From Euborellia annulipes (Eukaryota > Arthropoda > Insecta > Dermaptera > Anisolabididae): a DNA stretch of 64,000 nucleotides. The notes under the pieces were generated by a model. That model saw only the letters and a list, made by a program, of their open reading frames with translations. It was not told where the DNA came from and ran no database searches. Below are positions 1,189-52,864 of this stretch, in pieces. The stretch spans positions 62,001-126,000 of the forward strand of contig JAKCPI010012513.1 of assembly GCA_023213315.1 (NCBI GenBank), written 5' to 3'. Each line of letters begins with the position of its first letter. The stretch's first letter is position 1. A program made the position numbers and the translations under genes.

Positions 1189-1278
1189 CATTCCAATTAG
1201 ATTTAAATTAATTGTAACAAATTCATCAGCTGAGAACTCAAATTTACGCTGAATCATTTGTAAATAAATAAGTTGTAT
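1189..1278 (-). CDS. Shared exon 3 of the gustatory receptor locus (loop 3 to start of TM7)
   Basis: Thirty codons, phase 0 at both ends. The acceptor is a T/C tract ending CCTACAG and the donor is ATG|GTGAAT. The peptide contains MIQRKFEFSADEFVTINLNL, which matches the family pattern before the last helix of insect gustatory receptors (basic, then F-S-A-x-x-F-x-x-I-x-L). The expected last exon, with the TYxxxxxQF-type end, is not found in 1-1188 and should lie left of the window. Known family behaviour: this segment and the last helix form the conserved, pore-side part of the receptor. I see no second copy of this exon among the 18 large exons, so I infer it serves all of them. Confidence 0.78.
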
Positions 1279-1344
1279 CTGTAGGAAAAAAAAAGAGAAA
1301 ATATTTAGAATATATAATAAACTCTCAGATTCAAAATCTTTTAC

Positions 1345-1416
1345 CTTCCCGTAAAGTTTACTTTCGTGTGGAATTACTTCAAGCCATTTATCCAAAATAT
1401 TGATGATTTTATTAGC
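1345..1416 (-). CDS. Shared exon 2 of the gustatory receptor locus (inner loop 3)
   Basis: Twenty-four codons beginning ANKIINILDKWLEVIP and ending KLYGK. It is preceded by a long pyrimidine tract ending TTTTTTAG and followed by AAG|GTAAAA. It is phase 0 at both ends, so it joins in frame to every large exon of the array. Joining gives ...E-A-N-K..., the E-A-x-(K/R)-T-like motif at the inner loop between the sixth and seventh helices of gustatory receptors. The intron to exon 3 is only 66 bases and happens to be open in this frame, so an unspliced reading frame runs through both exons. Whether all large exons really splice here is inferred from phase, order and the absence of other copies. 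Confidence 0.78.
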
Positions 1417-1419
1417 CTA

Positions 1420-2042
1420 AAAAAAAAAGAGAAAAAAAATTCTTTAGTTCTAAAAGAGGAAATCGGCAAGTAATGAACATGTATAGGAAGATTTTTCAAA
1501 TAAGTTTTTTTTTTTTTTTTGAAATAAGAAATTTATAAATATAACATTTTATTTTTACATAACATTCTTACGGGAATCTCAAGCATAGTCAGGAATCTAA
1601 TATGAAATTTTCATGTATGGTCTTTAATTGAGTTTTTCTATTTTATTTTTTTTTTTTTGCAATTCAACAAATAGAAATTTTTTTTTAATTTTTTTTTTTT
1701 ATTTATTATTGATTTTGTTTGGGCTTTTGTAATTTTTTGCTTTTGTAAACAAATAATGTATCCAAAATGTTAAAAAAGGGGCTGGATGGCTTCTGCCGAA
1801 GCCGGTAATAAATTAAAAAAAAAAAAAAAATTTGACTTTGAGAGAAGAGACCGGATTTCAGAGCCACCGAATTGATCTATCGAATGTTTATTAATTCCCC
1901 CATTCTAATTCAAAAGATAATGTTCGCCTGTTAGTTAGGCAACCAAAATGTATCCGTCTAACAAAGAAGCGTCAAATAGAAACATTTAAAATTCGAAATC
2001 AAACTTATATTTTTTCATCTCCTACGATATTTATTAACAAAG
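1420..2042 (-). other. Intron between large exon 1 and shared exon 2
   Basis: AT-rich with T and A runs. At about 1776-1830 there is GGGGCTGGATGGCTTCTGCC, followed by GAAGCC and an A-rich end, which looks like the 3' end of a LINE or SINE. No other gene is visible. Confidence 0.5.
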
Positions 2043-2048
2043 ACTTAC

Positions 2049-2945
2049 TTCAGTTATTGCGAAACTTGTCGAGTAAATAATATAAAAAATCATAAACGGA
2101 AATATGAAAAATCCAAGGAAAAAATCAACTCGTATTAGAAGTATCAAAAACAAATAAATATCACTAATTCTATATTTCAAATAAAAACTAATATTATAAA
2201 AGATCCATAAATAGAAGAAAAATATTTCTAGGATAAATAAGGAGAAATATTTATTGAAAATGCCATTAATTTCATTAGCAATTTTACATAAAACGTAATA
2301 TTGTTTGTTTAAATTTTGTACTTGTGACGTAATTGATTCTAAATCTAAATCTTTAGACAAAAAAAGATCGGAGAAAAGAGAATTGATATGACGAAAATGC
2401 AAGGCTAAAAACATAACCATGGCACTAAATCGAACAGACGTTTGATAAATCACCGAAAAACAAAGAGAAAATCCCGAGAGATGAATAAAATCATATAAAT
2501 TACTTGAATCAAAATAATAAAAATTAATAATAATATTAATGAAAAATAATAAAATTATAGATTCAGTAAAAATATTAAAAATTAAATGTCTAGTGGTGAG
2601 AATTTGAAATTTATTTGCAAATCGAGACATAACACATAAAATATTATAAAAATTCTTTCGGTTAGAAATAGTTAACTCTTGAGCACAAGTATAAGTAGAA
2701 GTCAAAGCAAAAAAATGAAAATTTTGAAAAATTGCAGTCAACCACGTGCCAGATAATTCACTGAATTTTGTATTGGCAAAATTAACACAAGATGTTATAA
2801 AACTAATAGCAATAAAAAGGAAAACTAAATTAAAAATAACAAGAGATCGAGGGGGATATAAAATGTCATCTTGGATGAAAAAAGAAAAAGTGCCAAGAAA
2901 AAAACCAACTAGGATAGTTGGAGATATCACAGTAAAAAAATTCAT
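2049..2945 (-). CDS. Gustatory receptor-like large exon 1 (nearest the shared exons)
   Basis: 299 codons starting MNFFTVISPTILVGFFLG. An upstream in-frame TTG is unlikely to be used. It ends ...FAITE at the donor GAA|GTAAGT; reading past the donor meets a stop within four codons. Hydrophobicity suggests about six membrane segments (near residues 8-25, 33-55, 75-95, 125-150, 160-180, 225-280). It keeps the array motifs around I-Y-Q-T-S and I-N-x-I-F-x-K-Y, but the usual RRFAD is VRFSA. It is one of the two most divergent members and lies 0.63 kb from shared exon 2, so it could splice to it directly. The last helix is missing from this exon and must come from the shared exons. Insect gustatory receptors (7tm_7) are ligand-gated cation channels of chemosensory neurons. 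Confidence 0.85.
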
Positions 2946-3347
2946 CCTCAAGAAATGATAAATTCGTTAGTAAAATCACTAATAAACTAACCAACTTGTT
3001 ATTTAACACAATCAATATTCATTTTTTTTTAATTAAAGTTGTTAATTAATTATTTCATTAATAAATAAAAATTAGAGTATGCCATCGATAAATAATATTA
3101 TCTTTTAATTTTCTCATTGAGTTTATGTTTATTTTCTATTTAGCTAATGAGTTGATTAGTGTCAGAATTGTGGTAGTAATTTTCATGGGATGCGTTTTCG
3201 TTTCCTTTCTCAGGAGGAAGCATCTCAAATAGAATTGAATTTTAATATAAACCCGAATTATCTTTAAAACAAGATTATAAGCTTATAGTTTTATCCTCTC
3301 AGCTCCACAACGCAATTATATACGTAAAAGAAAACAATTCAAAAAAA

Positions 3348-4194
3348 TCTGGTGTGACTGGCGCACAGCACACAACTTTCTCTTACCCTTCGGTAAGAGA
3401 AAGTTGCGCACTGTGCTGGTCACACCAGATTTTTTGTGTCGAGATATATTTAGTTTCCGATAGCACCTTAGTTTCAAACTTGCATTTTAAATGTTGACTG
3501 CTTCAAATAAACTATGGTTATTTTTCAAAATTTTAATCTCATATTTGGACATTTTATACACAATATAGAATCGTAAATAAATACAAAATTTCATAAGAAT
3601 TGGAAAAAAAAATTTTAAATGCCTAAAAAGTTCCAAAGGGGACCCCCTTTTGAATCGAAATTAACATACAAATTCCTATAGGAAATTAACATTAGGCCTA
3701 TGAGAGAAGGCGGAGAGACAGGCGATAATGTTTGCAAGTGAGAGAGAGAGAGATATATGTTTTCTCCTAAGCAATTAAAGACACAAATAAAATAAAAATA
3801 AATGGGAATTTAAATAATAATTGATTTTTAATCTAATAAAAAGAAAAAGATTTAAATTCCGTTACCATGGCAACCAGTTCTATCTTTCCTATGAAGAACA
3901 AGAGTAAAGTGGTCTTCAGAAGATTTCAACGGCAAAATGAGAATATACATTTTAAAGAGCATCTAAAAAATAGTTCATTTATGAATTTTAAAAAAAATCC
4001 TTGGAGGGAATTTTGAGAAAATCGAAAAAAACTGAAAAAGTACATCAGTAAAGTACTAGTACTTTTTGGCCGATTTTGTTCAAAAGCTTATTTTGAGATT
4101 CTTCAAAGATACTTAAGTTAAATATAAAATTTCAACCCGGTAGCTCAACTCCTTCATGCTAAAAATCTGTCCACACATACAGACACACACACAC

Positions 4195-4225
<31 letters not shown>

Positions 4226-4368: not shown

Positions 4369-4397
4369 TGAATTTTTTTTTTTAATAGATTGACTTT

Positions 4398-5387: not shown

Positions 5388-5560
5388 AATTTTATTTTCT
5401 AATTTCATTAAGGTCATTTCGGGAACGAAAGCCATTTAGGATTGGTAGCCAATCCAAATGAAATAAATTGTCGCTTGAGACGGGATGCGAACTCGCAACC
5501 CTACAAATGACCAGCACGCTAACCAGTTACACCAAGGCCTATTTGAATTTACACAAATAT
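5388..5560 (-). repeat. tRNA-derived SINE (second type)
   Basis: On the minus strand: A-box-like TGGTGTAACTGGTTAGCGTG, B-box GAGTTCGCATCCC, then a body with ATTTCATTTGGATTGGCTAC and a tail near CGAAATGACC. It abuts the donor side of receptor exon 2 and causes a false extension of its frame. Confidence 0.7.
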
Positions 5561-5573
5561 TAAAAATACTTAC

Positions 5574-6476
5574 TTCATTTATCGCTGTATGTGTTGCATA
5601 TGTAAAATAAACAAAGAGTAACGTAAAAACAATAAATCCGAAAAACCAATCAGCGCTAATCAAGAGTTCGAAATAGAAAAGTGGATTTTGCTTATCATAT
5701 TTCAAATAATAACCAATATTATAAAAAAGACAAATATAAAAAAGAAAAAGCTCGGCAATATGAATGAGAAAATATTTAGAAAAAATTGAGTTAATATCAC
5801 AAGCTAAATGACATAATAAGAAATGTTGTTTGCATAAATATTGCGCTTTTTCAGGCAATTGTGTTTCCTCGAATATCGAGCGAGATAATTTAGAAAAACT
5901 TTGATTAATATGACGAAAATTTAATGTAACAAACATAACTAAATCAGCGAATCGACGGGATGTTTGATAAATTACAGATACATAAAAAGCCGGGGCGATG
6001 TATAACAGAAGAATAAACCATCCTTTGAACTCGAAAAAAGAATAACTAATTATGATATTCATAAATAAACACAAGGTCAAAATTTCGCAGAAAATTTCAA
6101 AAAAAAAATGTCCCCATGTTAAAATTTGAAATTTATCTGTAAATTCTTGAATTTTATTTAAAATTTTAAAAATCTCTTTATGTTTAAAAATCCATAAAAG
6201 ATGTGACGAATTATAATTAATACAAAAAGTAATAATATGAGTTCTTTGAAAATATTTTGTCATAGGCGACCGATGAAATTTTTCAAAATTTCCATCACGC
6301 ATATAGAAATAGATTTTCATAAATAGAAAATTTACAATACATATGAGGATTAATTGATAAATAAGAGCAGCTCGAGAAAAACGTAAATTTTTTCGGTTAT
6401 TTAATGAAAATGGAAAATTGCCGATCAAATAGCCCATGAAAAGTGTCGGCCACATTACTGTAAAAAAATCCATCAT
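5574..6476 (-). CDS. Gustatory receptor-like large exon 2
   Basis: 300-301 codons. There are two adjacent ATGs, and the array pattern M-D-F-x-T-V-M favours the second (6473). It ends ...HTAINE at GAA|GTAAGT. It has the array motifs IYQTSRRFADLVMF, NFRHIN, and LACDINSIFSKY. The open frame runs 45 codons past the donor into a SINE (5388-5560, same strand). That tail is rejected because the donor is conserved in all members and the extra residues resemble no receptor. It is a divergent single copy with closest paralogues elsewhere in the array. The spacer toward exon 1 is filled by hairpin elements. Confidence 0.85.
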
Positions 6477-6884
6477 AAAATAAAGGTATTGTTACTGGTG
6501 CATAATATTTTATAATAATTTCTATCATTATATTGATCTGATAAATTTCAATTAATTAAACTAATAAAGTTGATGATCTATATTAAAGTTCAAAATCTAT
6601 TAAGTTAATTGCTGATTGTTATTTTAATTTCTCTACGTAAATATGGACACGCCTACTTAACATACCTAAAGGTCATTATTAATATTTTAGTATAATAAAG
6701 AGAAGTGAAAAACATTTTTTACACAATGTTAGTCAGGATTATAAAACGCTCAAACTTAGATAGGATTCAATGGTTGGAGTCTTTCTATACAAAAAGATAG
6801 AAAATATAACTGGGAAAAATGGCAGCGACCTTAATTTGGGGAAATAAAAGTTTTAGATATAATTATTGGTAAATCTAAAAATTT
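6477..6884. other. AT-rich spacer upstream of exon 2
   Basis: No gene or repeat is recognised. The part next to 6476 should contain the promoter of exon 2, but no block shared with other exons is evident. Confidence 0.4.
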
Positions 6885-8320: not shown

Positions 8321-9178
8321 TTCATATATCGTTGAACTAGCTTGGTATGTAATCATGAAAAATGATAAAGTAAAAATGGCTAACCCCCAAAGCCACCCTG
8401 AACGAAACATTAATATAAAAATTAAAAACTCCTCGAATTCATATTTAAAATAGTGGAACAAATAATAAAGGATGCCTATACTATAAAGGAAATATTCTGT
8501 CAAATGAACAAGTAAATATTTAGAAAATATGGCGTCAATTTCTAAAGCTAATTGACACAAGAGAAAGTGTCGCTTATTAAAATTTTCCGCATATGTTCTA
8601 AGTAAATATAGATCTGTAAGTGTAGATAAATCTTCATAAAATTGACAAAAAGTTTTTTTCAAAAACATTACTAAATCTGCGAATCGACGAGAAATTTGAT
8701 AAATTATTGATAAATTTAAAGCCGGTCCTAAAATAAGAACAAAGTCAAACCATTCATTAATAAACAAATAATTAATTAAAATATTAATAAAAAATGATAA
8801 CGTAAGTAATTCAAAAAAAAGAATGATTAAAAAATCTTTAAAACAAAATTTAGATGAAAATTTGGAAATTTTATTAAATATTTTGCAAAAATTCTTTCTT
8901 TTGAATATCATTAGAAGAAATGCCCCATTGTAATTAATAATGAAGGAGAATATTTGAAATATATGATAAATTTTAGTTATATGGGATTGATTTTCATCGA
9001 ACGTACTATCTCGCACTATAAGAACCATTAAAAAATTACTCAGACACAACATCAGAAAGGTATAAAATTGTGCAGGACGGGATACACGAATAGTTCGGTT
9101 TGTGGATATAGAAAAAGGAAACGTGCCAAGGAGATACCCCAAGAAAATCGTGGGGGACATCACGGTTATAAAATCCAT
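8321..9178 (-). CDS. Gustatory receptor-like large exon 3 (8-25 kb subfamily)
   Basis: 286 codons starting MDFITVMSPTIFLGYLLGTF and ending ...SSTIYE at the donor GAA|GTAAGT. The start is the ATG; the in-frame TTG six bases upstream, conserved in most neighbours, is probably part of the ATG context TTGAACATG. It carries the subfamily motifs P-A (near residue 36), IYQISRRFADLVMFLKK and LCQLALEIDAIFSKY. It is the most divergent of the eight subfamily members and its upstream DNA lacks the block conserved 116-127 bases before the ATG of six others. Large loops are short, so almost the whole exon is membrane. Confidence 0.85.
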
Positions 9179-10034: not shown

Positions 10035-10894
10035 TTTATATATCGTAGTACTCCCTTCATAGGTGATAAAACCAAAAGAAAAAGTAAAAATAATTAATCC
10101 CAAAAGCCAACCAGAACGAATGATTATAATAAAAAGAGAAAATATGTTTATCATATCAAATTTTAAAAAATGAAAAATATAATAGAGAAAACATATAATA
10201 TAAAGAAAAACTTCGATGATGTGAACAAGTAAATATTTAGAAAAAAAATCGTTAATTTCGTTGGCTAATTGACATAGGATGAAATGTCGTAGGTTAATGT
10301 TTTGCACGTTTTTTTTAAATAAATGTAAATCTCTAAGTGCCGAGAAATCCTCGTAAACCTGACAAAAGTTTTTTTCAAAAACATAAGCAAGTCTGCGAAC
10401 CGACGAGAGGTTTGATAAATTATTGATAAACATAAAGTCGGGCCTAAAATGAGAGAAATATCAAACCATGCGTTAAGAAACAAATAATTAAATAAAATAT
10501 TAATATAAAATGATAGCGTAAGTAATTCCGTAAAAAGGATAATTAAAAAATCTTTCCAACTGAATTTTATCGAAAATTTAGAAATTTTATTTAATAATTT
10601 GCAAAATTTGTTTCCTTTAAAAATACATAAGAGTTGCGCAAAATTATAATTAATAACTAAAACGAATATATGAAATATTTCATAAAGTTTAATTAAATTA
10701 GATTGAGTTTGATTATAACGAGTGATTTTAAATAAATAAATAATAGAAAAATTACTCAGACATAGCATTGGTAAAATATAAATTATCGCAGGACGGAATA
10801 CATGAAAAGTTCGGTTTTTAGATATATAAAAAGGAAAAGTGCCCAGGAGATATCCCAGGAAAATAGTGGGGGACATTACGGCGATAAAATCCAT
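10035..10894 (-). pseudogene. Gustatory receptor-like large exon 4, 1-base frameshift
   Basis: Starts MDFIAVMSPTIFLGYLLGTF and stays in frame to MFLKK, then shifts near 10367-10380; a second frame continues NFCQVYEDF to ...TTIYK at a GTAAGT donor. The length is 860 bases, exactly one less than the 861 of its closest relatives. The lost base is in an A/T run (T7 on the plus strand), so either a real frameshift or a homopolymer error in the assembly is possible. Everything else (donor, motifs, promoter block upstream) is intact, so the break is probably recent or technical. Confidence 0.8.
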
Positions 10895-12560: not shown

Positions 12561-13421
12561 TTTATATATCGTAGTACTCGCTTCATAGGTGATAAAACCA
12601 AAAGAAAAAGTGAGAACGACTAATCCCAAAAGCCAACCAGAACGAATCATTATAACAAAAAAGATAAAAATGTTTTTAATTTCAAATTTTAAAAAATGAA
12701 AAAAATAATAAAAAAGACATATAATATAAAGAAAAACTTCGATGATGTGAACAAGTAGATATTTAGAAAAATAATCGTTAATTTCCTTAGCTAATTGACA
12801 TAAGAAGAAATGTCGTACGTTAATGTTTTGAACGTGTTTTTTAAATAAATGTAAATCTCTAAGTGCCGAGAAATCTCCATAAACCTGACAAAAATCTTTT
12901 TTCAAAAACATAAGCAAGTCTGCGAACCGACGAGAGGTTTGATAAATTATTGATAAACATAAAGTCGGCCCTAAAATGGCAAAAATATCAAACCAATCGT
13001 TAAGAAACAAATAATTAAATAAAATATTTATATATAAAGATAAAGTCAGGAATTCCAAAAAAAGAATAATTAAAAAATCTTTCCAACTAAATTTTAAAGA
13101 AAATTTAGAGATTTTATTCAATATTTTGCAAAATTTCTTTCCTTTGAAAATAGATAAAAGTTGAGCAAAATTATAATTAATAGTGAAAAAGAATATATGA
13201 AATAATTGATATAATTTAATTAAACTAGTTGGAAATTCATTATGATGAGTGAGTTTAATTAAATAAATAATAAACAAATTATTCAGACATAGCATTAGTA
13301 AAATATAAACTATCGCAGGACGAAATACACGAAACGTTCGGTTTTTAGATAGATAAAAAGGAAAAGTGCCCAGGAGATATCCTAAGAAAATAGTGGGGGT
13401 CATCACGGTGCTAAAATTCAT
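12561..13421 (-). CDS. Gustatory receptor-like large exon 5 (8-25 kb subfamily)
   Basis: 287 codons starting MNFSTVMTPTIFLGYLLGTF (the ATG, not the TTG six bases before) and ending ...ASTTIYK at the donor AAA|GTAAGT. It is intact, with IYQTSRRFADLLMFLKK and LCQLAKEINDYFSKY. An open frame continues some 80 codons past the donor into repeat DNA and is not part of the protein. The C-terminal residue before the donor is Lys rather than the usual Glu, shared with exons 4 and 7. The conserved upstream block lies 118 bases before the ATG. Confidence 0.86.
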
Positions 13422-14603: not shown

Positions 14604-15464
14604 TTCATGTATCGTGGCACTCGCTTCATATGTGATAAAACCGAGAGAAAAAGTGAAAACGATAAATCCCAAAAGCCAACCGGGACGAATCAAAATAACA
14701 AAAAGGTAAAAAATGTTTTTCATATCAAATTTTAAAAAATGAAAACAATAATAAAGAAGACATATAATGAAAAGAAAAATTTCGATAATATAAAAAAGTA
14801 AATATTTAGAAAAAAAATCGTTAATTTCGTTGGCTAATTGACATAGGGTGAAATGTCGTGCGTTAATATTTTTCACGTTTTTTTTAAACAAATTTAAATC
14901 TGTAGGTGCCGAGAAATCCTCGTAAACCTGACAAAAGCTTTTTTTCAAAAACATAAGTAAGTCTGCGAATCGACGAGAGGTTTGATAAATTATTGATAAA
15001 CTTAAAGTTGGGCCTATAATGAGATTAATATCAAACCATGCGTTAAGAAATAAATAATTAAATAAAATATTAACAAATAATAATAGCGCAAATAATTCCG
15101 AAAAAAGAATAATTAAAAAATCTTTACAACTGAATTTTATCGAAAATTCAGAGATTTTATTTAAAATTTCGCAAAGTTTCTTTCCTTTGAAAATACATAT
15201 AAGTTGAGCAAAATTATAATTAATAAAGAAAAAGAACATATGAAATATTTGATAAAATTTAAATAAACAAAATTTAATTTCATTATAATGACTCATTTTA
15301 TATAAATAAATAGTAGAAAAATTACTCAGACATAGCAATAGTAAAATATAAATTATAGCAGGACGGAATACACGAAACGTTCGGTTTTTAGATATATAAA
15401 AAGGAAAAGTGCCCAGGAGAAATCCCAAGAAAATAGAAGGGGACATCACGGTTCTAAAATCCAT
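14604..15464 (-). CDS. Gustatory receptor-like large exon 6 (8-25 kb subfamily)
   Basis: 287 codons starting MDFRTVMSPSIFLGFLLGTF and ending ...ASATIHE at GAA|GTAAGT. It is intact and closely related to exons 4, 5 and 7, keeping IYQTSRRFADLLMFLKK and LCQLANEINDFFSKY. It differs from its sisters mainly in the first outer loop (around residues 50-75) and in the fourth membrane segment. The hAT-type MITE at 14009-14355 and nested SINEs separate it from exon 5. The open frame continuing past the donor is ignored. Confidence 0.86.
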
Positions 15465-17149: not shown

Positions 17150-18007
17150 TTTATATATCGTTGTACTCGCTTCATAGGTGATAAATCCAAAAGAAAAAGT
17201 GAAAATAATTAATCCCAAAAGCCAACCAGAACGAATCAATATAACAAAAAGAATAAAAAAGTTTATTTCAAATTTTAAAAAATGAAAAAAATAATAAAGA
17301 AGACATATAAAATAAAGAAAAAATTCGATGATGTGAACAAGTAGATATTTAGAAAAAAAATCGTTAATTTCGTTGGCTAATTGACATAGGAAGAAATGTC
17401 GTGTGTTAATGATTTGCACATTTTTTTTTAATAAATGTAAATCTGTAAGTGCCGAGAAATCTTCGTAAACCTGACAGAAATTCTTTTTCAAAAACATTAG
17501 CAAATCCGCAAACCTACGGGAGGTTTGATAAATGATTGATAAACATAAAGTTGGGCCTATAATGAGAGAAATATCAAACCAATCGTTAAGAAATAAATAA
17601 TTAAATAAAATATTTATATAAAATGATAACGTAAGAAATTCAGTAAAAAGAACAATTAAAAAATCTTTACAACTTAATTTCAACGAAAATTTAGAGATTT
17701 TGTTTAATATTTTGCAAAATTTCTTTCCTTTGAAAATATTTAAGATTTGAGCAAAATTATAATTAAAAACGAAAATGACCATATGAAATATTTGATAAAA
17801 TTTAATTAAACTAGATGGAATTTCAGTATGATGTGTCATTTTAAATAAATAAATAATAAAAAAATTACTAAAACATAGAAGGGGTAAAATATAAACTCTC
17901 GCAGGACGGAATACACGAAAAGTTCGGTTTTTAGATATATAAAAAGGAAAAGTGCCCAGGAGATATCCTAAGAAAATTGTGGGGGACATCACGGCGATAA
18001 AATCCAT
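17150..18007 (-). CDS. Gustatory receptor-like large exon 7 (8-25 kb subfamily)
   Basis: 286 codons starting MDFIAVMSPTIFLGYLLGTF and ending ...ASTTIYK at AAA|GTAAGT. It is intact, with IYQTSRRFADLLMFLKK and LCQLANEINDFFSKY. One codon is lost relative to the 287-codon sisters, in the hydrophilic stretch before the last membrane segment of the exon (EINFFI). The first 30 residues are nearly identical to exon 4, so the two are recent duplicates. Confidence 0.86.
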
Positions 18008-18912: not shown

Positions 18913-20239
18913 TTCATGTATCGTTGCATTCGCTTCATAGGTGATAAAACCAAAAGAAAAATTAAAAATGACCAATCCTAAAAGCCAACCTGAACGAATT
19001 AATATCACAAAAAACATAAATAAGTATTGCATTTCAAATTTAAAAAAATGAAAAATATAATAAGGAAGACATATATTATAGAGAAAAAATTCGACGATGT
19101 GAACAAGTAAATATTTAGAAAAAAGATCGTTAATTTCCTTAGCTAATTGACATAAGAGGAAATGCCGTAAGTTAATATTTTGCACGTTTTTTTTAAATAA
19201 ATGTAAATCTGTAAGGGTCGAGAAATCTTCGTAAACCTGACAAAAGTTCTTTTTCAAAAACATAAGTTTCTTTCCTTCGCTGCATATAAGTCTGGTATGC
19301 GGAGCCCAGCCTGGACTCACGATTATACTGAGATTGGAAGATTGACAGGGTTGAGCACGTTGAAGTCCAGTAGGGACTATGTTGATGCCTGTGTGTTGTA
19401 TAAGATTATCAATAACCAATTATTATGCCCGGATTTAAAATCAAGGTTTGCTTTTAAAGAATCTTCTTATGAATTTCGTGACAAAAAGAAATTTGTAGTA
19501 CCAGCACACAGAACATCGTATGGACTCTACTCCCCTATTGCTAGATTATCCAGATTGGGAAATGATGAGCGTTGTCCGAACGTGGACATACCAACATTTA
19601 ATGTATTTAAGTCAAGGGCTAAATTCTATATATTGAATGTATGTAATTAATACAACAAAAATTTGATAATGTAAATATGTTTGTATTTGGGCTAATTGCC
19701 TGTGAAACAAAGTAAATAAATAAATAAATAAGTAAATCCGCGAACCGACGAGACGATTGATAAATTATAGATAAATATAAAGTCGGACCTAAAATGAGTG
19801 AAATATCAAACCAATCGTTTAGAAACAAATAATTAAATAAAATATTTATATATAAAGATAGAGTCAGAAATTCCGAAAAAAGAATAATTAAAAAATCTTT
19901 CCAACTAAATTTTAAAGAAAATTTAGAGATTTTATTCAATATTTTGCAAAATTTCTTTCCTTTAAAAATACATAAGAGTTGCGCAAAATTATAATTAATA
20001 ACGAAAAAGACGGTATGAAATATTTGATAAAGTTTATTTAAATCAGAATGCATATCATTATAATGAGTCGATCTAATTAAATGAATCAAGAAAAAATTAC
20101 TAAGACATAGGATTATTAAAATATAAACTATCGCAGGACGGAATACACGAAACGTTCGGTTTTTAGATAGATAAAAGGGAAAAGTGCCCAGGAGATATCC
20201 TAAGAAAATTGTGGGCGACATCACGGTGCTAAAATCCAT
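18913..20239 (-). pseudogene. Gustatory receptor-like large exon 8, split by a LINE
   Basis: The two halves are MDFSTVMSPTIFLGYLLGTF...SSRRFADLL (20239-19734) and LMFLKKNFCQVYEDF...NATIHE (19267-18913), with a GTAAGT donor. Between them lies a 466-base LINE piece, including one copy of the target duplication. Subtracting it leaves 861 bases, the exact subfamily length, and no other disabling change is visible. The exon was therefore probably functional until the insertion. The insert reads on the plus strand, opposite to the receptor. Confidence 0.85.
19268..19733 (+). mobile_element. 5'-truncated non-LTR retrotransposon (reverse transcriptase tail)
   Basis: An open frame (19297-19650) encodes RGLSTLKSSRDYVDACVLYK-like and later VVPAHRTSYGLYSPIARLSR-like residues. 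This is the C-terminal region of Jockey/CR1/R1-type ORF2 (the S-L-x-x-R-R-x-x-x-D-x-x-x-L-Y-K-I and final R-x-x-N motifs). The 3' end is an (AAAT)n tail. The flanking duplication is ATAAGT (19262-19267 and 19728-19733). It interrupts receptor exon 8. The clade assignment is tentative. Confidence 0.75.
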
Positions 20240-20975: not shown

Positions 20976-22944
20976 TTCATGTAACGTTGCACTTGCTGCA
21001 TAGGTGATAAAACCGAGAGAAAAAGTGAAAAGGACTAATCCCAAAAACCAACCTGAACGAATCAATATCACAAAAAAAAAAAATATATTTTTCAGCTCAA
21101 ATTTTAAGAAATGAAAAAAATAATAAAGTAGACATATATTATAGAAAAAGAATTCGGCGATGTGAACAAGTAAATATTTAGAAAAAAAATCGTTAATTTC
21201 GTTGGCCATTTGACATAGGAAGAAATGTCGTTGGTTAATGTTTTGTACGTTTTTTTTTAATAAATGTGTATCTCTAATGCCCAATCGCACCGCACAATTT
21301 AAGTATAACTTAAAATAAAGTATCAGCAACATGGCAACGTTGTAAATTTAAGTGATATTCTGCTGATTTATTTGTGATTTAATATTATAAGACTTAAACG
21401 ATACTGTTATTTATTAATAAATATATATTGGGGGTCCTGGCATCTTTATTCACGCCATTTGGGTCTTGAAACATGATTTTATTTTCAATCAGAGAACGTG
21501 TTATCTTAGCAACGAACGTGGTTAGCAACGGATGACAATGAAAGTTTGTTAAATTTCATACTTAACCCCCAAATATTTAAGCCCTCGATTTCGGGGGCTT
21601 AGCAATGACTTAACTTAAAAAACAATATTAATAATATAATATTAATTAACTACTAATAATACATTTTTTGGATTCGATTTAGATTTTTCTTATAAAAAAC
21701 ATGAACAATATGAACTATATTTTCGAGGATGATCTATATTATATTAGAGGAGGGTCTGTCGGTCCATCCGTCTGTCACGCTCTGACCAACTTCCCGTTGG
21801 AATTTTGAAACGAAATTTTCCAGTCTTATATTAGTAGAGCTGTGTTTTTCAATCTTTTTGAATTTACAGGTTGAAAAATTCTGGCGATTCTCTTGGTTCA
21901 TGACCGACAAAAAGATTGTAAATCAAAAGACTATGTAAGTTATATGATTTTCTCTATTTTGGTACCTATTTCCCTTCTCCATGAAATTGTGTTTTTATTA
22001 TCGTGTAGAACTTTGCCTTTTTCCTTTTGCCGCCTACCCTCCGTGTAGGGCTTCGCCACCCCCTAGGGGTCCCGACCCACAGATTGAAAAACACTGTTAT
22101 AGAGTGACAGATCGTTATTAATATTTATATATAGTAGCCTATATATAAAATTTCTATTAATTAATCAAAAATCATGAAAATTAATATTTTGTTTCTGATT
22201 TTCTCATTTTTCTGAAATTAATATTTATAAACAATATGTATTTAATTTAGTTTATGATTATTAAAAAGAAAAAATTATTAAATTAAAAATAAATCACCAG
22301 AATATCACTAAAATTTACAACGTTGCCAGGTTGTTGATACTTAATTTTAAGTCATACTTAAATTGTGCGGTGCGATTGGGCATAAGTGCCGAGAAATCTT
22401 CGAAAACCTGACAAAAGTTATTTTTTAAAAACATAAGTAAATCCGCAAACCTACGAGAGGTTTGATAAATTATTGATAAACATAAAGCCGGGCCTATAAT
22501 GAGAGAAATATCAAACCATGCGTTAAGAAACAAATAATTAAATAAAATATTAAAATATAATGAGAGTGTAAGAAATTCCGAAAAAAGAATAATTAAAAAA
22601 TCTTTCCAACTGAATTTTATCGAAAATTTAGAGATTTTATTTAATATTTTGCAATATTTATTTCCTTTGGAAATTCCTAAGAGTTGAGCAAAATTATAAT
22701 TAATAACGAAAAAGACCATATGAAATATTTGATAAAATTTATTTAAGCCAGATTGAATTTCATTAAGACGAGTCGATCTAATTAAATGAATCATGAAAAA
22801 ATTACTAAGACATAGGATTATTAAAATATAAACTATCGCAGGACGGAATACACGAAAAGTTCGGTTTTTAGATAGATAAAAGGGAAAAGTGCCCAGAAGA
22901 TATCCTAAGAAAATTGTGGGCGACATCACGGTGCTAAAATCCAT
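20976..22944 (-). pseudogene. Gustatory receptor-like large exon 9, split by a MITE
   Basis: Starts MDFSTVMSPTIFLGYLLGTF and reads to ...CQVFEDFSAL. It resumes after the insert as RDTHLLKKNVQNIN... to ...SATLHE at a GTAAGT donor. Removing the 1105-base element plus one copy of the TAA duplication leaves 861 bases in frame, the subfamily length. The MITE is the only disabling lesion I see. The conserved upstream block is present 116 bases before the ATG. Confidence 0.85.
21278..22382. mobile_element. Harbinger-like MITE inside receptor exon 9
   Basis: Terminal inverted repeats of at least 90 bases start TGCCCAATCGCACCGCACAA at both ends, flanked by a TAA duplication (21275-21277 and 22383-22385). 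A three-base TWA target and GCCCAAT-type ends are typical of PIF/Harbinger. The interior has no long frame, so it is non-autonomous. It includes an AT-rich core and GC-rich stretches of unknown origin. Confidence 0.8.
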
Positions 22945-25276: not shown

Positions 25277-25361
25277 GTTCAAATGCTAAATAGCTATGCC
25301 TATTGTGTATTCATTTAATATTCATTAAAATCAATAAGCAATTATTTTAATTAAAAAAAAA

Positions 25362-30416: not shown

Positions 30417-30719
30417 GATCAAATGAAAACGGTTTTATAAATAATGGTCTACTATATTAATTGAAAAATTGCATATTTGTAATTAATCAATAAAAATTAA
30501 TCAATCGACTCTAAGTGATGAATTAGCGGAACTTAAGTGATGAGACCCAAATATCTAAATGAAATCTATCCGACAATAAGAAGAAAATAAAATAGACCAT
30601 TATAAAATTGTATTCAAATTTAGATCAAGAAGACAAGATTAAATTTAATGTAGAAAGTGGCTGTGTAGAATTAAATAAAGAATTTAAGAGGAAAGCAGCC
30701 TCTATTAAATTAAACTCCT

Positions 30720-31240: not shown

Positions 31241-32125
31241 TTCTTTTGTTGTGAAATTGGCAGAATATGTAATGTAAAAGATCATGATGGAATAAATAAT
31301 AAATGCAAAAGCAAAAACGAAGCTTATCACAAATTCAAAAAACAGATGTGGATTTTTCATGTCATATTTGAAAAAATAACAATAATTATAAATAAAGGAA
31401 ATATTAAATAGAAAATTTTCGGTAATATGAAAAAGGAAATATTTAGAAAATAGAGTATTAGTTTCTAGAGATAATTTGCATAAAAGAAAATGTTTTTTAT
31501 TAAAAAAGTTTGCTTTTTTGAAATCATGTAAAAAATAAAATTTAGAAAGATTTTCGTTAATGTGTCGAAAATTTAAACCTAAAAACATAATCATATCACC
31601 AAACCGTAGACTAAATTGATAATTCGTCGATAAACTCAAAATCGTTACAAAAAAAAACATAAGATTAATTTTTTGATTGATATCAGGAAGAAAACAATCG
31701 TAGAAAAAGAGGATGTGAAAAGTAAATGTAAACAATTCAAAAAATAAAACAAATATAAAATGTTTCCTATTTAGTGTTTGAAATTGGTTTGAAAATTCGC
31801 GCATTTTATTTAAAATAATAATAATTTTATTTTTCTTTAAAATAGGCAACAATTGTGAATAATTATAATTTAAATAGAAAAAGGCTATCTGAAAAATTTG
31901 GAAATATTTTGTTATAGAAGAACGATTATATTGAGAAAAATTTGAGAAATAATTGCTGAATAAAATGGTAGAAATAAAATTATAATTTACAAAAGAAATT
32001 ATCAAGAGAGTATATGCAATATAAATGAAAGATATATGCATTTTATGATTTTTTATAATAAAGGGAAAATTGCCGAAAATATGACCAAGAAAAATTAAGG
32101 GAGATATTACTTTGAAAAAATCCAT
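31241..32125 (-). CDS. Gustatory receptor-like large exon 12 (29-39 kb subfamily)
   Basis: 295 codons starting MDFFKVISPLIFLGHIFGNF and ending ...NFTTKE at GAA|GTAAGT. It is intact, with FGDMIMFLGLNFRHINENLS and LCKLSLETNTLFSKY. The tyrosine of IYQT is kept as N-Y-Q-F. The Asn-rich segment around residues 55-65 is the most variable region against exons 11 and 15. A SINE head (31030-31145) lies just downstream of the donor side. Confidence 0.85.
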
Positions 32126-32275
32126 GATTAAATGAGAAACAATTCTAAAAATTAATTTATATAATATATCACTCTATTGATTAATAGATTTTATTAAAAA
32201 TTTAATCACACAATTAATTAAATTAAATCAATATAAAAGTTGAATTTATTTTAATTAAAAAAAAAAAAAAATGGG

Positions 32276-32605: not shown

Positions 32606-33496
32606 TTCATCTGTTGTCTTACTTGAGGCATATGTAATATAAACAATCATAAAAATAAAAATAAGACAACCTAGAATCCAATGTTCATGAATTAAAAGTT
32701 TATTAAATGTAAATAAAATTGCACTATTGTTTTTCAAATAGTAAAAGAAATTATAAAAAAAAGCGGTAAATATGAGTAATAGGCCAATGATGAGAAAGAG
32801 AAGGTATTTTGAATATAGGGCATTAATTTCAAAGGCTATTTGGCATAAAAGAAAATGTTGTTTATTTAAATATTCGGTTTTTAATAGACAATTTAAGTCT
32901 GAGTTGAGAAATAATTCAGAAAAATTTTCATTAATTTTACAAAAATTCTTTGTCAAAATTATGATCAGATCACCAAACCTGCATGTTGTTTGATATATTA
33001 CAGAACTAATGAAAAAAGGTCCGAAATAATGCATAAATTGAAAAAAATTATTAATTGGATAAAAGTAATAGTCAAATAAAAGAGCAATAAATGTAATTAA
33101 AATTAGAGATTCAAAAAGAAAAATAAATAAAAAATCCTTCCAGGTGAATTTAATAGAAAATTTAGAAATTTTATTTAAAACCAGACAAAAATTATGTTGT
33201 TTGAAAATACATAATAATTGTGCATAATTATAATTAATAGATAAAATGAGACATTCAATCCATTCGAAAATTTGTGTTGCAGGTGATTTCATTATTTGAA
33301 CGGATTCATTTCTAGGTCTTAACTTAAATAGAAAGTATATTACGATCAAAAAGTTGCCAAGAAGCATCATAAAAAAATTATATACAAGAAAAGGGAGGAA
33401 TATCCGTAAATTTCTATCTTTAGTTATTGAAAAAGGAAAGGTGCCAAGGATATATCCGAAGAGGATAGTGGGGAACATCACTTCAAAAAAATCCAT
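32606..33496 (-). CDS. Gustatory receptor-like large exon 13
   Basis: 297 codons starting MDFFEVMFPTILFGYILGTF and ending ...SKTTDE at GAA|GTAAGT. It is intact. Its sequence is between the groups: SAVIYQT-like with CRFGDLIIILTKNFCKINEN, and LCQIAFEINALYSKY. K-F-S-I-K-F-T-W-K-D-F-L resembles the 8-25 kb subfamily, whereas RFGD resembles the 29-39 kb one. It may be an old recombinant or a slow lineage; I cannot tell which without alignment. Confidence 0.84.
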
Positions 33497-33960
33497 CTCC
33501 AAATAATGGAGAGATTAGAGAATAGCTTAATTTGTATTAATTTTATTAGAGTAAAATCAATACCATTACTTAATGAATAACTATTAAATTTTTAATTGGA
33601 AAATGTTTTATGTGAACTATTAATTCTTAAAAAAATATTTAGGGTTAATCGGATAAGAACAGCGAAAGATAAATAATATAACAGTTAAAATTTTAGTTGA
33701 TTAAATGTAGGTGTTTTAATAGATCTCGCGAGTATCAAAATTAAAATATTAAGTTGTGACAAAAAAGGTGGTGCCGATAAATTTAAATCGAATCATATTA
33801 TTTTTCTTAAGTTAGCGAAGAATTCAAAAAAGTAAAAATATACGGGCTTTTTGAAAATATTTAAAGAAAAGCTTTGAATTCTCGCATTTCATTTCTAAAG
33901 GGGACTTGACTCCCTTTTAGTAAGTTCAGTAAAGTGAACTTAAAACAACTTTCAAGAAAA
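33497..33960. other. AT-rich upstream region of exon 13
   Basis: No gene recognised. A piece of hairpin-family body begins near 33930, and a 36-base A run sits at about 33988-34023. Confidence 0.4.
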
Positions 33961-35640: not shown

Positions 35641-36537
35641 TTCCATTGTTGTAAAATTTGCAGAAGATGTATTATATAATATCATTGTAGAATAAAGAAT
35701 AAATGATAAGAACCAAAACATGGTGATAAGAGAATCAAAATAAGAATTTAACATATTCTTATCATATTTTAAATAATAGCATAAATTATAAACAAACGAA
35801 ATATAATAAAGAAAAGATTCTAAAAGAGTAAGAAGAAAATATTTAGAAAATAGAGCATTTATTTCGGAAGTCAATTGGCATAAAAGAAAATGCTGTTTGC
35901 TAAAAAAATGCAATTTTCTAAATGAAATTACATCCGACGTTGTAGAAAAATTTAGGATATTTTCATTAATGTGACGGAAATTTATTCCTAAAAACATAAT
36001 CATATCACCGAATCTTTTAGTTGTTAGATAAATTGTCGATGTACTTAGAGATGATACAAATAAAAATAAAAGATTTACTTTCTCTTGAAAGATTTTTAAA
36101 TTAAAAAACTCATATATTAAAACAAAAAAATGAGGTAAGATTAATAATTCAAAGAACAAAATAAACAAAAAATGCTTCTTTTTGGTAGTTTTAAATAGTA
36201 ACGAAAAATCAGAGAACTTATTTAAAACGAGAATAAAATTTTTCCATTTAAAAATTGGTAATAATTGAGAATAATTATAATTTATAAGAAATAAAATCAT
36301 TTGAGAAAATATAAAATATTTCGTTATAGGAGACCAATTTAGTTGTTTAGCTCTATTAAGCTGTGCGTTAAATACAACAATATTAACGAAATGATATGAA
36401 ATAAAACCAGTTAATAGTAGCGAATAAATAACAATAATCCAAGATAAATGTAATGTATGATTGTTTCTAAAATAAGGGAAATTTCCTAAAAAATAACCAA
36501 AGAAAAATATGGGACTCATCACCGTAAAAAAATGCAT
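35641..36537 (-). CDS. Gustatory receptor-like large exon 14 (29-39 kb subfamily)
   Basis: 299 codons starting MHFFTVMSPIFFFGYFLGNF and ending ...ANFTTME, with the donor GAA|GTGAGT rather than GTAAGT. It is intact, with IYLTTKRFGDMIMFLGINFR and LCQLTSEINALFSKY. It has a His at the second residue, where other members have Asp, Asn or Glu. It lies between two clusters of hairpin elements. Confidence 0.85.
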
Positions 36538-36749
36538 GATTAAATGAAAGAAAAATTGTAAAATTAATTTCTTAAATACATCCTTATTGATCAGAAGGCT
36601 TATAAAATTAATTTATTGTTTAGTTTAATTAGATAAATAAAGACAAATAATGACAAATTTAAAAAACATTCTATCGCCTTGAGTATAGGCTACTGTTACC
36701 ATGGCCTGTCTAACGAGTAGCTTTAAAATCGACTTTTCTCTACCAATTA

Positions 36750-38461: not shown

Positions 38462-39349
38462 TTCATTCATAGCGAAATTTGCAGAATAAGCAATAAATAA
38501 CAGCATAATAATAAAAATCATAAGTCCGAAATTCCAAATGGTATTTATCAAAAGATCCAAATACAAAAGTTCATCTTTCACGTCATATTTTAGAAAAGAG
38601 AATATATTATAAATAACAACAATCGAAAAGTCGAAAACTTCCATAAGGTGAAGAACAAAATATTTTGAATATAGTGCGTTAATTTCTAAAGCTAATTGGC
38701 ACAATAAAAAATGTTGTTTAGAATAAAATTGAGTTTTTCTAAATAAATTAAAATCGGTAGAAAAGCGTAATTTTGATAAATTTTCGTTAATATAATGGAA
38801 ATTGTAGCCTAAAACTATCACCATATCCCCAAATCTTCGGCTTGTCTGGTAAAGTGTAGATAAACTTATAGAAGACACACAAAAATACATAAGACTAATT
38901 TTTTTTGAATCAAGAAAACAATAAAATAAGAATATAATAAAAACAATCAATGTCAAAAGTTCAAAAAATAAAATCAAAATAAAATGTTTTCTGTTTAGTG
39001 TTTTAAATTGATATGAAAATGTACTTAATTTATTTAAAATAATAATAAATTTTTTTCTTTTAAAAATTGATAAGAATTGCGAACAATTATAGTTAATAAT
39101 AAATAAGCCTATCTGACAAAATTGAAAATATCTTGTTATGGAAGAACGTTGAAATTGATGATAGAAATTAATGTGATTGGTAAATAGAAGAATTTGTATG
39201 AAATTATAATTTACAAAACAAATGACGAAGATCATATAAAGTAAAATAACCCAAGAGAAACTAAATTTATGGTATTTTACAATGAAAGGAAAATTGCCAA
39301 GAAAATAACCAAGGTAAATTGCAGGGGACATCACGGTAAAAAACTCCAT
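38462..39349 (-). CDS. Gustatory receptor-like large exon 15 (29-39 kb subfamily)
   Basis: 296 codons starting MEFFTVMSPAIYLGYFLGNF and ending ...NFAMNE at GAA|GTAAGT. An in-frame ATG 57 bases upstream (39406) would add 19 polar residues absent from all paralogues, so the homologous ATG is preferred. It is intact, with LYQTSRRFGDMVIVLGYNFH and LCQLALEINALYSKY. The open frame past the donor runs about 40 codons into spacer DNA. Confidence 0.85.
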
Positions 39350-39541
39350 GGTCAAGTGAGGAGTCAAATTTATATTTTTTAATTTTCTTTTATATTGATT
39401 GGTCATTATAATAAATTAATTGGAACAAATTCAATACAGGGAAGGAAAAATTAATTTAATAGAGGAAGAAAAAAAATGTATATTGAATAAGGTTACATAC
39501 ACAATTAATTTAATTTTAAAAGTACTTCTTTATGTGTAAAA

Positions 39542-44237: not shown

Positions 44238-44985
44238 TTCGGGTATATGAACTCAGTTGGAAAGCAAATTTAGCCATCGGGCTAGCCGAGTGTTTCCCAA
44301 TTATGACAAAAATCTAACGCAAGGGTTGTTTTAATTAATTTTTCTCTATGATCCCAACATGATCCCTCGATGAGGCTTATATTATCTTTTAATCTTTAAG
44401 CAAGGACCATTTTAGAATTTTTTCAAAATTTTCGAAGGGGTACTTTTTAAAAAAAAATTATATTTTTGCACTTTTATGGCAAAAATCTAAAGAAAGGGTT
44501 GTTTTAAATTAATTTTTCTATATGAACCCATTATGATCCCATGATGAAACTTAGTTTTATCTTTAATCCTTTAAATAAGGATTATTTTAGAATTTTTCAA
44601 AATTTTCGAAGGGGTACTTTTTTGAGAAAAATTACTTTAAATTTTTGATTTTGAAATAAAAAAAATTTTTATTACCACCCCAGGTGTATTATATATCATT
44701 GGAAAGGGTGTCTAAAAAGCTGTAAAATGACCTCATTCATCTCTCTATCTCATCTCTAAGTGATTTTATATCAATTTAAATAGATGTGGTTAGGTCGATT
44801 TTTTGCCATTTTTGACAACTTTAACCCGCCATATCTTTTAAACGAGTTGAGATATCAAGTTGAAATTGGAGCTTTTTCTTAGTCTCTATTGACTCTACCT
44901 ATGACCCAAATTTCATAGAAATCTGAGATGGTGAGGTTAAAAAGTGTATCGATTTGACGTGGAATGACTCATTAACCCTTTAGTT

Positions 44986-47133: not shown

Positions 47134-48033
47134 TTCATATATAGTAGAATTTGCACTAATTGTTATATAGGCGATTAAAAATATAAAGAGAATTAATGCC
47201 AATAACCAATCTCCTCGTATTAGAACTTTTATATAATTTTTAATATTAAGATTTGGACTATTAATTGTTATATTAAAAAGATTATAAAAAAAGGAAATTA
47301 AAAAAAGAAAAATGTGTAATAGGTTTATAATTAAATATTTCGAAAAAATGGCGTTAATTTCATATGCCATTTGACATAATTTAAAATGTTGTTTACAAAA
47401 GTATTGTGCTTTAAAAAATAAAAAACTTGTTTCTTTAATGAAGGGGGAGAAACTAGAAAGGGATTTGTTAACGTAACGGAAATTTAATTTCAAAAATATG
47501 ATCATGTCTCCGAAACGACGAGTCGTCTGGTAAATAGTTAATCCAAATAATCCACTACCACTAAAGTATATCAACTGATTTAAATTGTAACATTTAAAAT
47601 AAAAATAATTAATAAAAATACTTTTGAGAAATAACAAAGTGAATATTTCAAAAATTAACATTATGAAACAATTTTTCCGAGTCAAAATTTTAAACTTATT
47701 TGAAAATTTCAAGAATTTTTTTAAAATATTAGACATTTTTTTCAGTTTAAAAATATAAATAAGACGATTGCAGTTATAATTAATAATAAGAAATATAGCC
47801 TCATTGAAATCAAAATATCTAGTTAAGGGGGATCGATCAACAACAGTGAACTCGTTTAATTCGTTTACAGTAAAATACAAAATAAATATATAATTCCCAA
47901 AACAAATAAGAATAAAATTATAAATAACTTCTAATCGACAAAGGTAAAAATTACCGTCCTTAATAAAAAAAGGAAAAGTTCCAAATAAATAGCCTATGAA
48001 AATCGTAGGGGACATCACTGTGTACAAATCCAT
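47134..48033 (-). CDS. Gustatory receptor-like large exon 16 (47-53 kb subfamily)
   Basis: 300 codons starting MDLYTVMSPTIFIGYLFGTF and ending ...NSTIYE at GAA|GTGAGT. It is intact, with IYQTTRRFGDMIIFLKLNFR and LCQMAYEINAIFSKY. From residue about 97 to the end it differs from exon 17 at one residue, while the first 96 residues differ at about 15. It shares conserved upstream DNA (to about 48180) with exons 17 and 18, so the three arose by recent tandem duplication with their promoters. Confidence 0.87.
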
Positions 48034-48195
48034 TTTGAAATAAATAATTACTGAATGAGTTTAATGTTTTAACCAAGATAATTAAAATTAAAATCGACGT
48101 TGTCCTCTCAATCAATAGCGTCTCTATCATAATTAAGCTAAATTGATTGATTCACTCAGTAATAAATGTATTAGAAAATGAATAAATTAAAAAAA

Positions 48196-49660: not shown

Positions 49661-49832
49661 TCTGTTTTTATGTAATAAGAAGAGCCCTGATGTTCATGCA
49701 GAATCAAACCTAAAAATATGCCTGCATTAATGCATTACAAAATGACCAAATATGCACAATGAGGGGAAAAACAGAAAAAATATGCTCTATCACAAATTGA
49801 GTCGCATTTTATGTATTTTTAACTTTGCACAT

Positions 49833-50092: not shown

Positions 50093-50210
50093 AACTTTGC
50101 ACATCAGAGAGATAACTCTTTGTCAAAACAAAAATATAAGAATTGATACAGGACCAAGGGAGTAGTCTTATATCTACAAAAAATATAAGAAATTAAAGAT
50201 TACTACTCAC

Positions 50211-51110
50211 TTCATATATAGTAGAATGTGCACTGATTGTTATATAGGCGATTAAAAATATAAAGAGAATTAATGCCAATAACCAATCTCCTCGTATTAG
50301 AACTTTTATATAATTTTTAATATTAAGATTTGGACTATTAATTGTTATATTAAAAAGATTATAAAAAAAGGAAATTAAAAAAAGAAAAATGTGTAATAGG
50401 TTTATAATTAAATATTTCGAAAAAATGGCGTTAATTTCATAAGCCATTTGACATAATTTAAAATGTTGTTTACAAAAGTATTGTGCTTTAAAAAATAAAA
50501 AACTTGTTTCTTTAATGAAGGGGGAGAAACTAGAAAGGGATTTGTTAACGTAACGGAAATTTAATTTCAAAAATATGATCATGTCTCCGAAACGACGAGT
50601 AGTCTGGTAAATAGTTAATCCAAATAATCCACTACCACTAAAGTATATCAACTGATTTAAATTGTAACATTTAAAATAAAAATAATTAATAAAAATACTT
50701 TTGAGAAATAACAAAGTGAATATTTCAAAAATTAACATTATGAAACAATTTTTCCGAGTCAAAATTTTAAACTTATTTGAAAATTTCAAGAATTTTTTTA
50801 AAATATTAGACATTTTTTTCAGTTGAAAAATATAAATAAGACGACTCCAGTTATAATCAATAATAAGAAATATAGCCTGATAGAAATCAAAATATCTAGT
50901 TAAGGGGGATCGATCAACATCAGTGAACTCGTTGGCTTGGTTCATGGTAAAATACAAAGTAAATACATAATTTCCAAAACAAATGAGAATAAAATTATAA
51001 ATAACTACTAATCGACAAAGGTAAAAATTACCGTCCTTAATAAAAAAAGGAAAAGTTCCAAATAAATAGCCTATGAAAATCGTAGGTGACATTACTGTGT
51101 AAAAATTCAT
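50211..51110 (-). CDS. Gustatory receptor-like large exon 17 (47-53 kb subfamily)
   Basis: 300 codons starting MNFYTVMSPTIFIGYLFGTF and ending ...AHSTIYE at GAA|GTGAGT. It is intact. Differences from exon 16 are concentrated in residues 1-96 (for example E35V, V64D, C88W, N89S, K95Q) and almost absent afterwards. The upstream flank (51111-51260) matches those of exons 16 and 18, then runs into a GATC-rich repeat shared by the three spacers. A SINE with a perfect 12-base duplication lies just beyond the donor. Confidence 0.87.
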
Positions 51111-51264
51111 TTTGAAATAAATAATTACTGAATAAGTTTAATGTTTTAACCAAGATAAATAAAATTAAAATTGTTTTCTTAATCAATAGAGTCTCTATCA
51201 TAATTAAACTAAATTGATTGATTCATTAAAAGAATTACAAAATGAATAAATTAAAAAAATCTAG

Positions 51265-51780
51265 TGGGATTAGTCGAACATTTAACAACAACAAATTAGG
51301 TTCTGATCACAGAATATATAAGAATATAGTTCTGATATACTAGAAGAAATTAAAAATATATCGAAACCAAAAATATGGTGTGACAGCACAACCCGCAACT
51401 ATCGATTTCCTAAGATAGAAGAAAAAGTTGTGGAATGTGCGGTAAGTCTCAAGAGATTTCTAAGTTCTGAACTTCTATTCTGAATTTCTAAATTGTGAAC
51501 TTCTAATAAGATTGACTTTAAAGAAGTAAATTTTTAATTGAATATTAAAAAACAGGGAAGGGCAAAATCGTTTAAAAAGGATCCAAAGATTCGAGAGGTT
51601 CGGACGATCCGATTCACTAATCCGGCTGCTGCAAAAGGATTAGCGATCCGATCCAGTGATCTGACTCGGTGATCCGATCCGATTTAGAAAAAGGATCACT
51701 GTTCCGATTCGCAAATCCAGATCCGCGATCCGCAAATCCGATCGAGTTTCTCATAAAACTCGAAAAAACAGGGCCGGAGA
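51265..51780. repeat. Third GATC-rich repeat unit
   Basis: Diverged hairpin-element 5' piece followed by the GATCCG-rich unit, as upstream of exon 16. It was duplicated together with the receptor exon. Confidence 0.6.
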
Positions 51781-51967
51781 ATTTTTGCCTTTCCGTGTTT
51801 CAGAAAAATATTCAGCAAACATGCATTTGCATGAACTCTAGTAATAAGGTATAGAAAAAGTAAACTTATAATCGCTAAAAGCTTTGAGATTTTGACGATT
51901 ATAGATTCAAGTTAGAAATAACTCTTTGTCAAAACAAAAATATAAGAAATTAAAGATTACTACTCAC

Positions 51968-52864
51968 TTCATATATAGTAGAATTTGCACTAATTGTTAT
52001 ATAGGCGATTAAAAATATAAAGAGAATTAATGCCAATAACCAATCTCCTCGTATTAGAACTTTTATATAATTTTTAATATTAAGATTTGGACTAATATTT
52101 GCAAAATTAAAAAGATTATAAAAAAAAGAAATTAAAAAAAGAAAAATGTGTAATAGGTTAATAATTAAATATTTCGAAAAAATGGCGTTAATTTCATATG
52201 CCATTTGACATAATTTAAAATGTTGTTTACAAAAATATTGTGCTTTAAAAAATAAACTTGTTTGTTTAATGAAGGGGGACAAACTAGATAGAGATATGTT
52301 AACGTGACGGAAATTTAATTCCAAAAATATGATCATGTCTCCGAAACGACGAGTCGTCTGGTAAATGGTTAAAGTAAATAATCCACTACCACTAAAGTAT
52401 ATCAAATGGTTTAAATTATAACATTTAAAATAAAAATAATTAATAAAAATACTTTTGAGAAATAACAAAGTGAATATTTCAAAAATTAACATTATGAAAA
52501 AATTTTTCCGTGTCAAAATTTTAAACTTATTTGAAAATTTCAAGAATTTTTTTAAAATATTAGACATTTTTTTCAGTTGAAAAATATAAATAAGACGATT
52601 GCAGTTATAATTAATAATAAGAAATATAGCCTGAGAGAGATCAAAATATCTAGTTATGGGGGATCGATCAACATCAGTGAACGCGTTTAAATCGTCCAAA
52701 ATAAAAAATAAAGTAAATATATAATTTCCAAAACAAATAAGAATAAAATTATAAATAACTACTAATCGACAAAGGTGAAAATTACCGTCCTTAATGAAAA
52801 AAGGGAAAGTTCCAAATAAATAGCCTATGAAAATCGTAGGGGACATCACTGTGTACAAATCCAT
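51968..52864 (-). CDS. Gustatory receptor-like large exon 18 (farthest from the shared exons)
   Basis: 299 codons starting MDLYTVMSPTIFIGYLFGTF and ending ...NSTIYE at GAA|GTGAGT. It is intact. It differs from exons 16 and 17 in the first third (ILDDLNAF loop) and slightly near FANISPN, with one codon lost in the S-L-F-F-K region. If it uses the shared exons at 1.2-1.4 kb, the first intron would exceed 50 kb, so processing may depend on its own promoter and very long transcripts. No further receptor exon is visible to its right. Confidence 0.86.

Follow-up and report, generated by a model that had tools for sequence, protein, structure and literature searches.

The stretch of DNA analyzed here, called the window throughout, comprises 64,000 nucleotides (nt) of Euborellia annulipes contig JAKCPI010012513.1 (positions 62,001-126,000 of the forward strand), and all coordinates given below are window-based. 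It is AT-rich (27-32% GC in 4-kb steps) and bears an array of large exons that very probably belong to a single insect gustatory-receptor (Gr) gene. A tblastn search and a six-frame hidden Markov model (HMM) scan led to 18 homologous large exons, which lie between 2049 and 52864 and all have minus-strand orientation. The HMM, built from the 15 intact exons, detected no further large exon in the window, the next six-frame match having an E-value of 0.17. All 18 exons start with an ATG in the pattern M-x-[F/L]-x-x-V-[M/I]. Fifteen of them harbor an open frame from the ATG to the donor, with a length divisible by three (286-300 codons): exons 1 (2049-2945), 2 (5574-6473), 3 (8321-9178), 5 (12561-13421), 6 (14604-15464), 7 (17150-18007), 10 (24416-25276), 11 (29517-30416), 12 (31241-32125), 13 (32606-33496), 14 (35641-36537), 15 (38462-39349), 16 (47134-48033), 17 (50211-51110) and 18 (51968-52864). 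The remaining three are broken. Exon 4 (10035-10894) is frameshifted and keeps its donor, while exons 8 (18913-20239) and 9 (20976-22944) are interrupted by insertions. All 18 exons terminate at the same aligned codon, which specifies Glu or Lys, and the donor behind it reads GTAAGT (14 exons) or GTGAGT (four exons). The original prediction, made from the sequence by eye, had already described these phase-0 ends in the same terms. It had also given all 18 exons lengths divisible by three once insertions are removed, with exon 4 one base short; this is accurate for the 15 intact exons and for exon 4 (860 nt), whereas exons 8 and 9 with their insertions in place are not multiples of three.

The intact large exons are under purifying selection. 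The ratio of non-synonymous to synonymous substitution rates (dN/dS) was 0.28-0.64 in 68 of the 105 intact-exon pairs, namely those with dS below 1.3, although pairwise ratios near a dS of 1 are rough; the other 37 pairs, with dS of 1.3 or more or saturated, were left out. The upper bootstrap bound exceeded 1 only for the pairs 16/17 and 16/18. A tree of the 15 intact exons clustered neighboring exons with each other (16-18; 11, 12, 14 and 15; 3, 5, 6, 7 and 10, joined by 13 at lower support), which fits local tandem duplication.

Putative shared small exons and the receptor fold

Two small exons, S1 and S2, are located downstream of exon 1 on the same strand. S1 (1345-1416, minus strand) has 24 codons in phase 0, an acceptor with 15 of 15 pyrimidines and the donor AAG|GTAAAA. 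S2 (1189-1278, minus strand) has 30 codons, also in phase 0, with a pyrimidine-rich acceptor and the donor ATG|GTGAAT, its predicted product being the segment that leads up to S7. Two phase-0 introns with matching sites can be drawn (large exon to S1 and S1 to S2), and for a third one only a weak donor is present in the window. The intron between S1 and S2 (1279-1344) is 66 nt long and contains no in-frame stop; if retained, it would lengthen the protein by 22 residues rather than terminate it.

Copies of the small exons were sought with a splice-aware scan for an AG, an open frame of exactly the S1 or S2 length and a GT, a design that passes over copies of other lengths or without GT-AG borders. 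On the minus strand it returned 35 S1-like and 20 S2-like candidates, and only the real S1 (127) and S2 (147) scored above zero; the best of the others reached -4 and -6, respectively, and the best scores on the control strand were 8 (S1) and -13 (S2). Copies simulated at 40% identity had median scores of 43 (S1) and 52 (S2), therefore moderately diverged copies would have been seen, while strongly diverged copies, or those that differ in length, could escape. Plain tblastn did not reveal a second S1 or S2 in the window either (next best E-value = 0.16). Hence the single compatible set of small exons that had been proposed is indeed the only pair found in the window, and none was detected behind individual large exons there. 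The further claim of one common 3′ end is borne out in part: S1 and S2 would make up part of the shared set, while a search of the minus strand turned up no TYhhhhhQF pore exon in the window, which ends 1.2 kb beyond S2. If present, this last, pore-forming shared exon would lie beyond the left edge of the window (coordinate 1). A degenerate TYhhhhhQF obtained by reading past S2 was considered and rejected, as a stop appears after eight codons, before the 20 missing profile positions described below.

Past the large-exon donors there is little sequence conservation. Exons 5 and 7 share 82% protein identity, yet the 1000 nt that follow them share no BLAST match. Among 14 pairs compared, five match within 25 nt of the donor, over 27 to 126 nt.

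Joining the exons strengthened the match to the Pfam family 7tm_7 (PF08395; cutoff 26.6 bits, profile length 370). Exon 2 alone scored 40.9 bits over profile positions 4-294. With S1 and S2 attached it scored 63.4 bits and the match extended to position 350 of 370, in contrast to a control with reversed S1 and S2, which scored 46.1 bits and stopped at 329. The joined test also covered exons 18 and 7 among the 15 intact ones; these rose from 15.2 and 19.6 bits, below the cutoff, to 37.7 and 36.8 bits, both reaching position 350. Taken alone, 12 of the 15 intact exons match 7tm_7 at an E-value of 0.1 or better. The last 20 positions of the profile would be fitted by the TYhhhhhQF pore exon. The structure model of exon 2 has insect gustatory receptors as its best matches, and the modeled chain shows the S0-S6 fold of solved Gr structures, including the S0-S1 β-hairpin. 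Profile and model together support the assignment of S0-S6 to the large exons and of the part leading into S7 to the shared ones, in agreement with the earlier suggestion that each large exon supplies six helices and the shared exons the last part of the protein. Sequence searches yielded no relatives: a protein collection queried with one exon (197 candidates, none at E-value 0.01) or with the alignment of 15 exons (3999 candidates) gave no relative, none of 179 pattern matches in viral contigs could be confirmed as one, and exon 2 found nothing by sequence in the PDB. A profile search of the PDB yielded weak matches to DsbB alone (E-value of 0.07 and worse).

A probable single gene with alternative first exons

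Before the large-exon ATGs no consistent acceptor was found; an acceptor-like AG stands at varying distances in front of eight of the 18 exons and is absent before ten. Because no such signal recurs, the large exons look like first exons, and their use as internal exons behind a common leader was rejected on the same grounds. We consider it very probable that the locus is one insect gustatory-receptor gene with 18 tandem large exons (15 of them open), each of which has an individual ATG and the common phase-0 donor and would be used singly as first exon, joined to one shared 3′ set. Since three of the 18 exons are broken, the gene would likely give rise to about 15 different receptors. In the proposed mechanism each large exon would have its own short proximal promoter, and transcription from the selected one would read downstream through the remaining large exons. 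As these lack a consistent acceptor in front, the first donor would be joined to the first good acceptor, at 1416, which for the most distal exon 18 lies approximately 50.5 kb away. Each product, if expressed in this way, would combine an individual ligand-binding bundle (S0-S6) with the S7 and pore common to all.

Tandem clusters of separate Gr genes are common, and diverged short exons easily go unnoticed; the array could accordingly be a cluster of separate receptor genes whose own small 3′ exons were lost or changed past recognition. We regard this as improbable. In the splice-aware scan nothing on the minus strand other than the real S1 and S2 scores above zero, although copies at 40% identity should score far higher, and most close paralogs share little just past the donor. 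Furthermore, purifying selection on the open frames makes little sense if they have no 3′ end. A related reading would let the large exons splice to several 3′ sets, of which the window shows the first and the others lie left of coordinate 1. That no terminal exon was found in a window that stops so soon after S2, together with the weak S2 donor, speaks for it, but for each of the 18 exons the very strong S1 acceptor comes first among the compatible ones detected, and a distant second set could be reached only by skipping it, so there is little chance that this arrangement applies. The array may also be seen as decaying or unexpressed, consisting mostly of pseudo-exons of a former receptor gene, given that three exons are broken, two of them by insertions. 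Against this, none of the 18 has lost its donor, every pair measured has a dN/dS below 1 and 15 exons keep open frames of 286-300 codons in an AT-rich sequence, which makes wholesale decay very hard to believe.

The organization of the locus is already known from beetles, cockroaches and flies. The Tribolium castaneum gene TcasGr214 has 30 variants (PMC6720082) and three shared 3′ exons (PMC6307266), while 24 functional forms are quoted for a gene written TcasGr124 (PMC8308034). Tribolium therefore has more variants, whereas two shared small exons, and no third, were detected in our window. Other beetle genes, AglaGr99 (17), LdecGr48 (13) and DponGr38a-d, are described as combining unique N-terminal exons with one or more shared C-terminal exons in one gene (PMC6720082), compared to 18 large exons, 15 of them intact, here. 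Gr60a-m of Blattella germanica has many long first exons spliced through phase-0 introns onto three shared short final exons, and some splices of that gene set are backed by RNA-seq (PMC6175461); it counts 13 intact forms, in contrast to the present 18 with three broken. Concerning Drosophila Gr39a, large exons encoding six helices each, with their own start codon and donor, are joined to three small exons, and have been gained and lost by duplication; D. melanogaster has four of them and some other species have more, D. mojavensis for instance carrying seven copies of one exon type, of which two are pseudo (PMC2204066). The same layout of own ATG, common donor and one shared acceptor set is found here, with 18 exons over approximately 50 kb. 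Clustered protocadherins and chelicerate sDscam also carry tandem variable 5′ exons or cassettes with their own promoters, spliced to constant exons (PMC4835542), but the proteins are unrelated, the promoters in our locus are putative and the likeness is an analogy only. Given that Tribolium Gr214 combines 30 long 5′ exons with a shared set of three 3′ exons, and that AglaGr99, LdecGr48 and BgerGr60 have 17, 13 and 13 variants, our locus is not exceptional, as it had been called; 18 large exons, 15 intact, is a large number and no record. The original prediction was thus probably right about a single locus in which large first exons share small 3′ exons, and overstated its rarity. As a large and clear-cut case, the locus illustrates a gene whose exchangeable ligand-binding parts are predicted to be kept apart from a constant pore, and its broken exons show turnover in progress.

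Upstream segments and the TATTGAT element

Close paralogs are alike over the 115-185 nt that immediately precede the ATG and lose this similarity farther upstream (for instance 5/7, 7/8, 8/9, 4/6, 16/17 and 17/18). Motifs were counted in 11 representatives (exons 1, 2, 3, 7, 10, 11, 12, 13, 14, 15 and 18), omitting exons 4, 5, 6, 8, 9, 16 and 17 as close copies. Within the 160 nt before the ATG, TATTGAT occurs in nine of the 11, against 1.3 expected (family-wise p = 0.002). Overall, 11 of the 18 exons have it, at 12 sites 50-108 nt before the ATG, and its density per kb is 4.2 in upstream segments, 0.57 in exons and 0.25 elsewhere. On the minus strand it is located before exons 1 (3011-3017), 10 (25330-25336), 11 (30486-30492), 13 (33556-33562), 16 (48111-48117), 17 (51182-51188) and 18 (52942-52948), and on the plus strand before exons 2 (6531-6537), 14 (36585-36591) and 15 (39393-39399). 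Exon 12 has a distal site on the minus strand (32227-32233) and a proximal one on the plus strand (32175-32181). Exons 3-9 lack the motif; TATTGAAT precedes exons 4-8, and AATGAATA precedes six of the seven exons 3-9, exon 6 being excepted. Other motifs at -160 to -1 were the 8-mer TATTGATT (7/11, p = 0.002), TTTAATTA (8/11, p = 0.037) and TTTTAATT (9/11, p = 0.045), while TTAATTA is as frequent (9/11) but has a family-wise p of 0.22. No motif below p = 0.12 emerged from the control segments at -320 to -161, at -480 to -321 and in the intron at +7 to +166; the intron control at +167 to +326 produced a single 8-mer (p = 0.03), and the positive control at the exon start reached p = 0.0033.

The element points tentatively to a separate promoter for each exon, an arrangement known from the protocadherin clusters, and its candidacy as a shared promoter element is suggestive. 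Two points weigh on the other side. With one exon per deep clade, TATTGAT was present in five of six (p = 0.11), which weakens the support; a second deep-clade set, picked after the motif was known, gave six of six (p = 0.0066). In addition, the motif could have been kept through shared descent. TATTGAT resembles the core of the Onecut motif, which is similar to ATTGAT. A rather doubtful, though possible, extension is that each first exon has its own promoter built on TATTGAT (or on the TATTGAAT/AATGAATA variant before exons 3-9) and bound by a neuronal factor of the Onecut/POU type, each taste neuron picking one of about 15 promoters and thereby one head on the common pore. In Drosophila, Acj6 and Onecut motifs are reported to peak directly upstream of Or genes and to be required for an Or19a reporter (PMC3302810), and dimers of the Onecut motif to be sufficient for class-specific expression (PMC4356613). 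Our literature search brought up no promoter element common to the alternative first exons of a Gr gene, although one may have been published elsewhere; NlGr10 has an alternative first exon, and the word promoter does not occur in the available text of that report (PMC6307266). In a locus whose architecture is already known, the TATTGAT element is the new part and the one that deserves the attention of specialists. If it is a promoter element, the array would offer a natural set of 18 related promoters for studying the choice of one receptor per neuron.

A palindromic repeat with the core CTCTTACCGAAGGGTAAGAG recurs at approximately 3360-3420 and 25357-25436. A copy stands approximately 80-160 nt before the ATG of exon 10, inside the putative promoter segment of that exon.

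Insertions and repeats

The insertion in exon 8 (19276-19728, edges approximate) measures approximately 0.45 kb, has a TAAA-rich stretch at one end and carries a plus-strand open reading frame (ORF) without a Pfam match, presumably resembling the end of the protein of a long interspersed nuclear element. The insertion in exon 9 (21278-22382, approximately 1.1 kb) has terminal inverted repeats of approximately 110 nt with 92% identity and TTA on both sides, and looks DNA-transposon-like. Two tandem repeats of two copies each are located between large exons, at 27862-28519 (period of 358 nt) and 44301-44634 (period of 174 nt). Past the exon 2 donor the open frame continues through a tRNA-like stretch at 5436-5570, perhaps a short interspersed nuclear element; a tRNA gene scan and an Rfam scan of the window were both empty. 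At 62170-62781 the minus strand has an Asn/Pro/Gln-rich reading frame that may represent an exon of a different, unrelated gene located upstream of the array; neither this frame nor six other ORFs of the window had a Pfam match. Finally, the element at 63004-63269 (approximately 266 nt), which reads similarly on either strand and has terminal inverted repeats of 22 nt with 91% identity, is probably a small DNA transposon.

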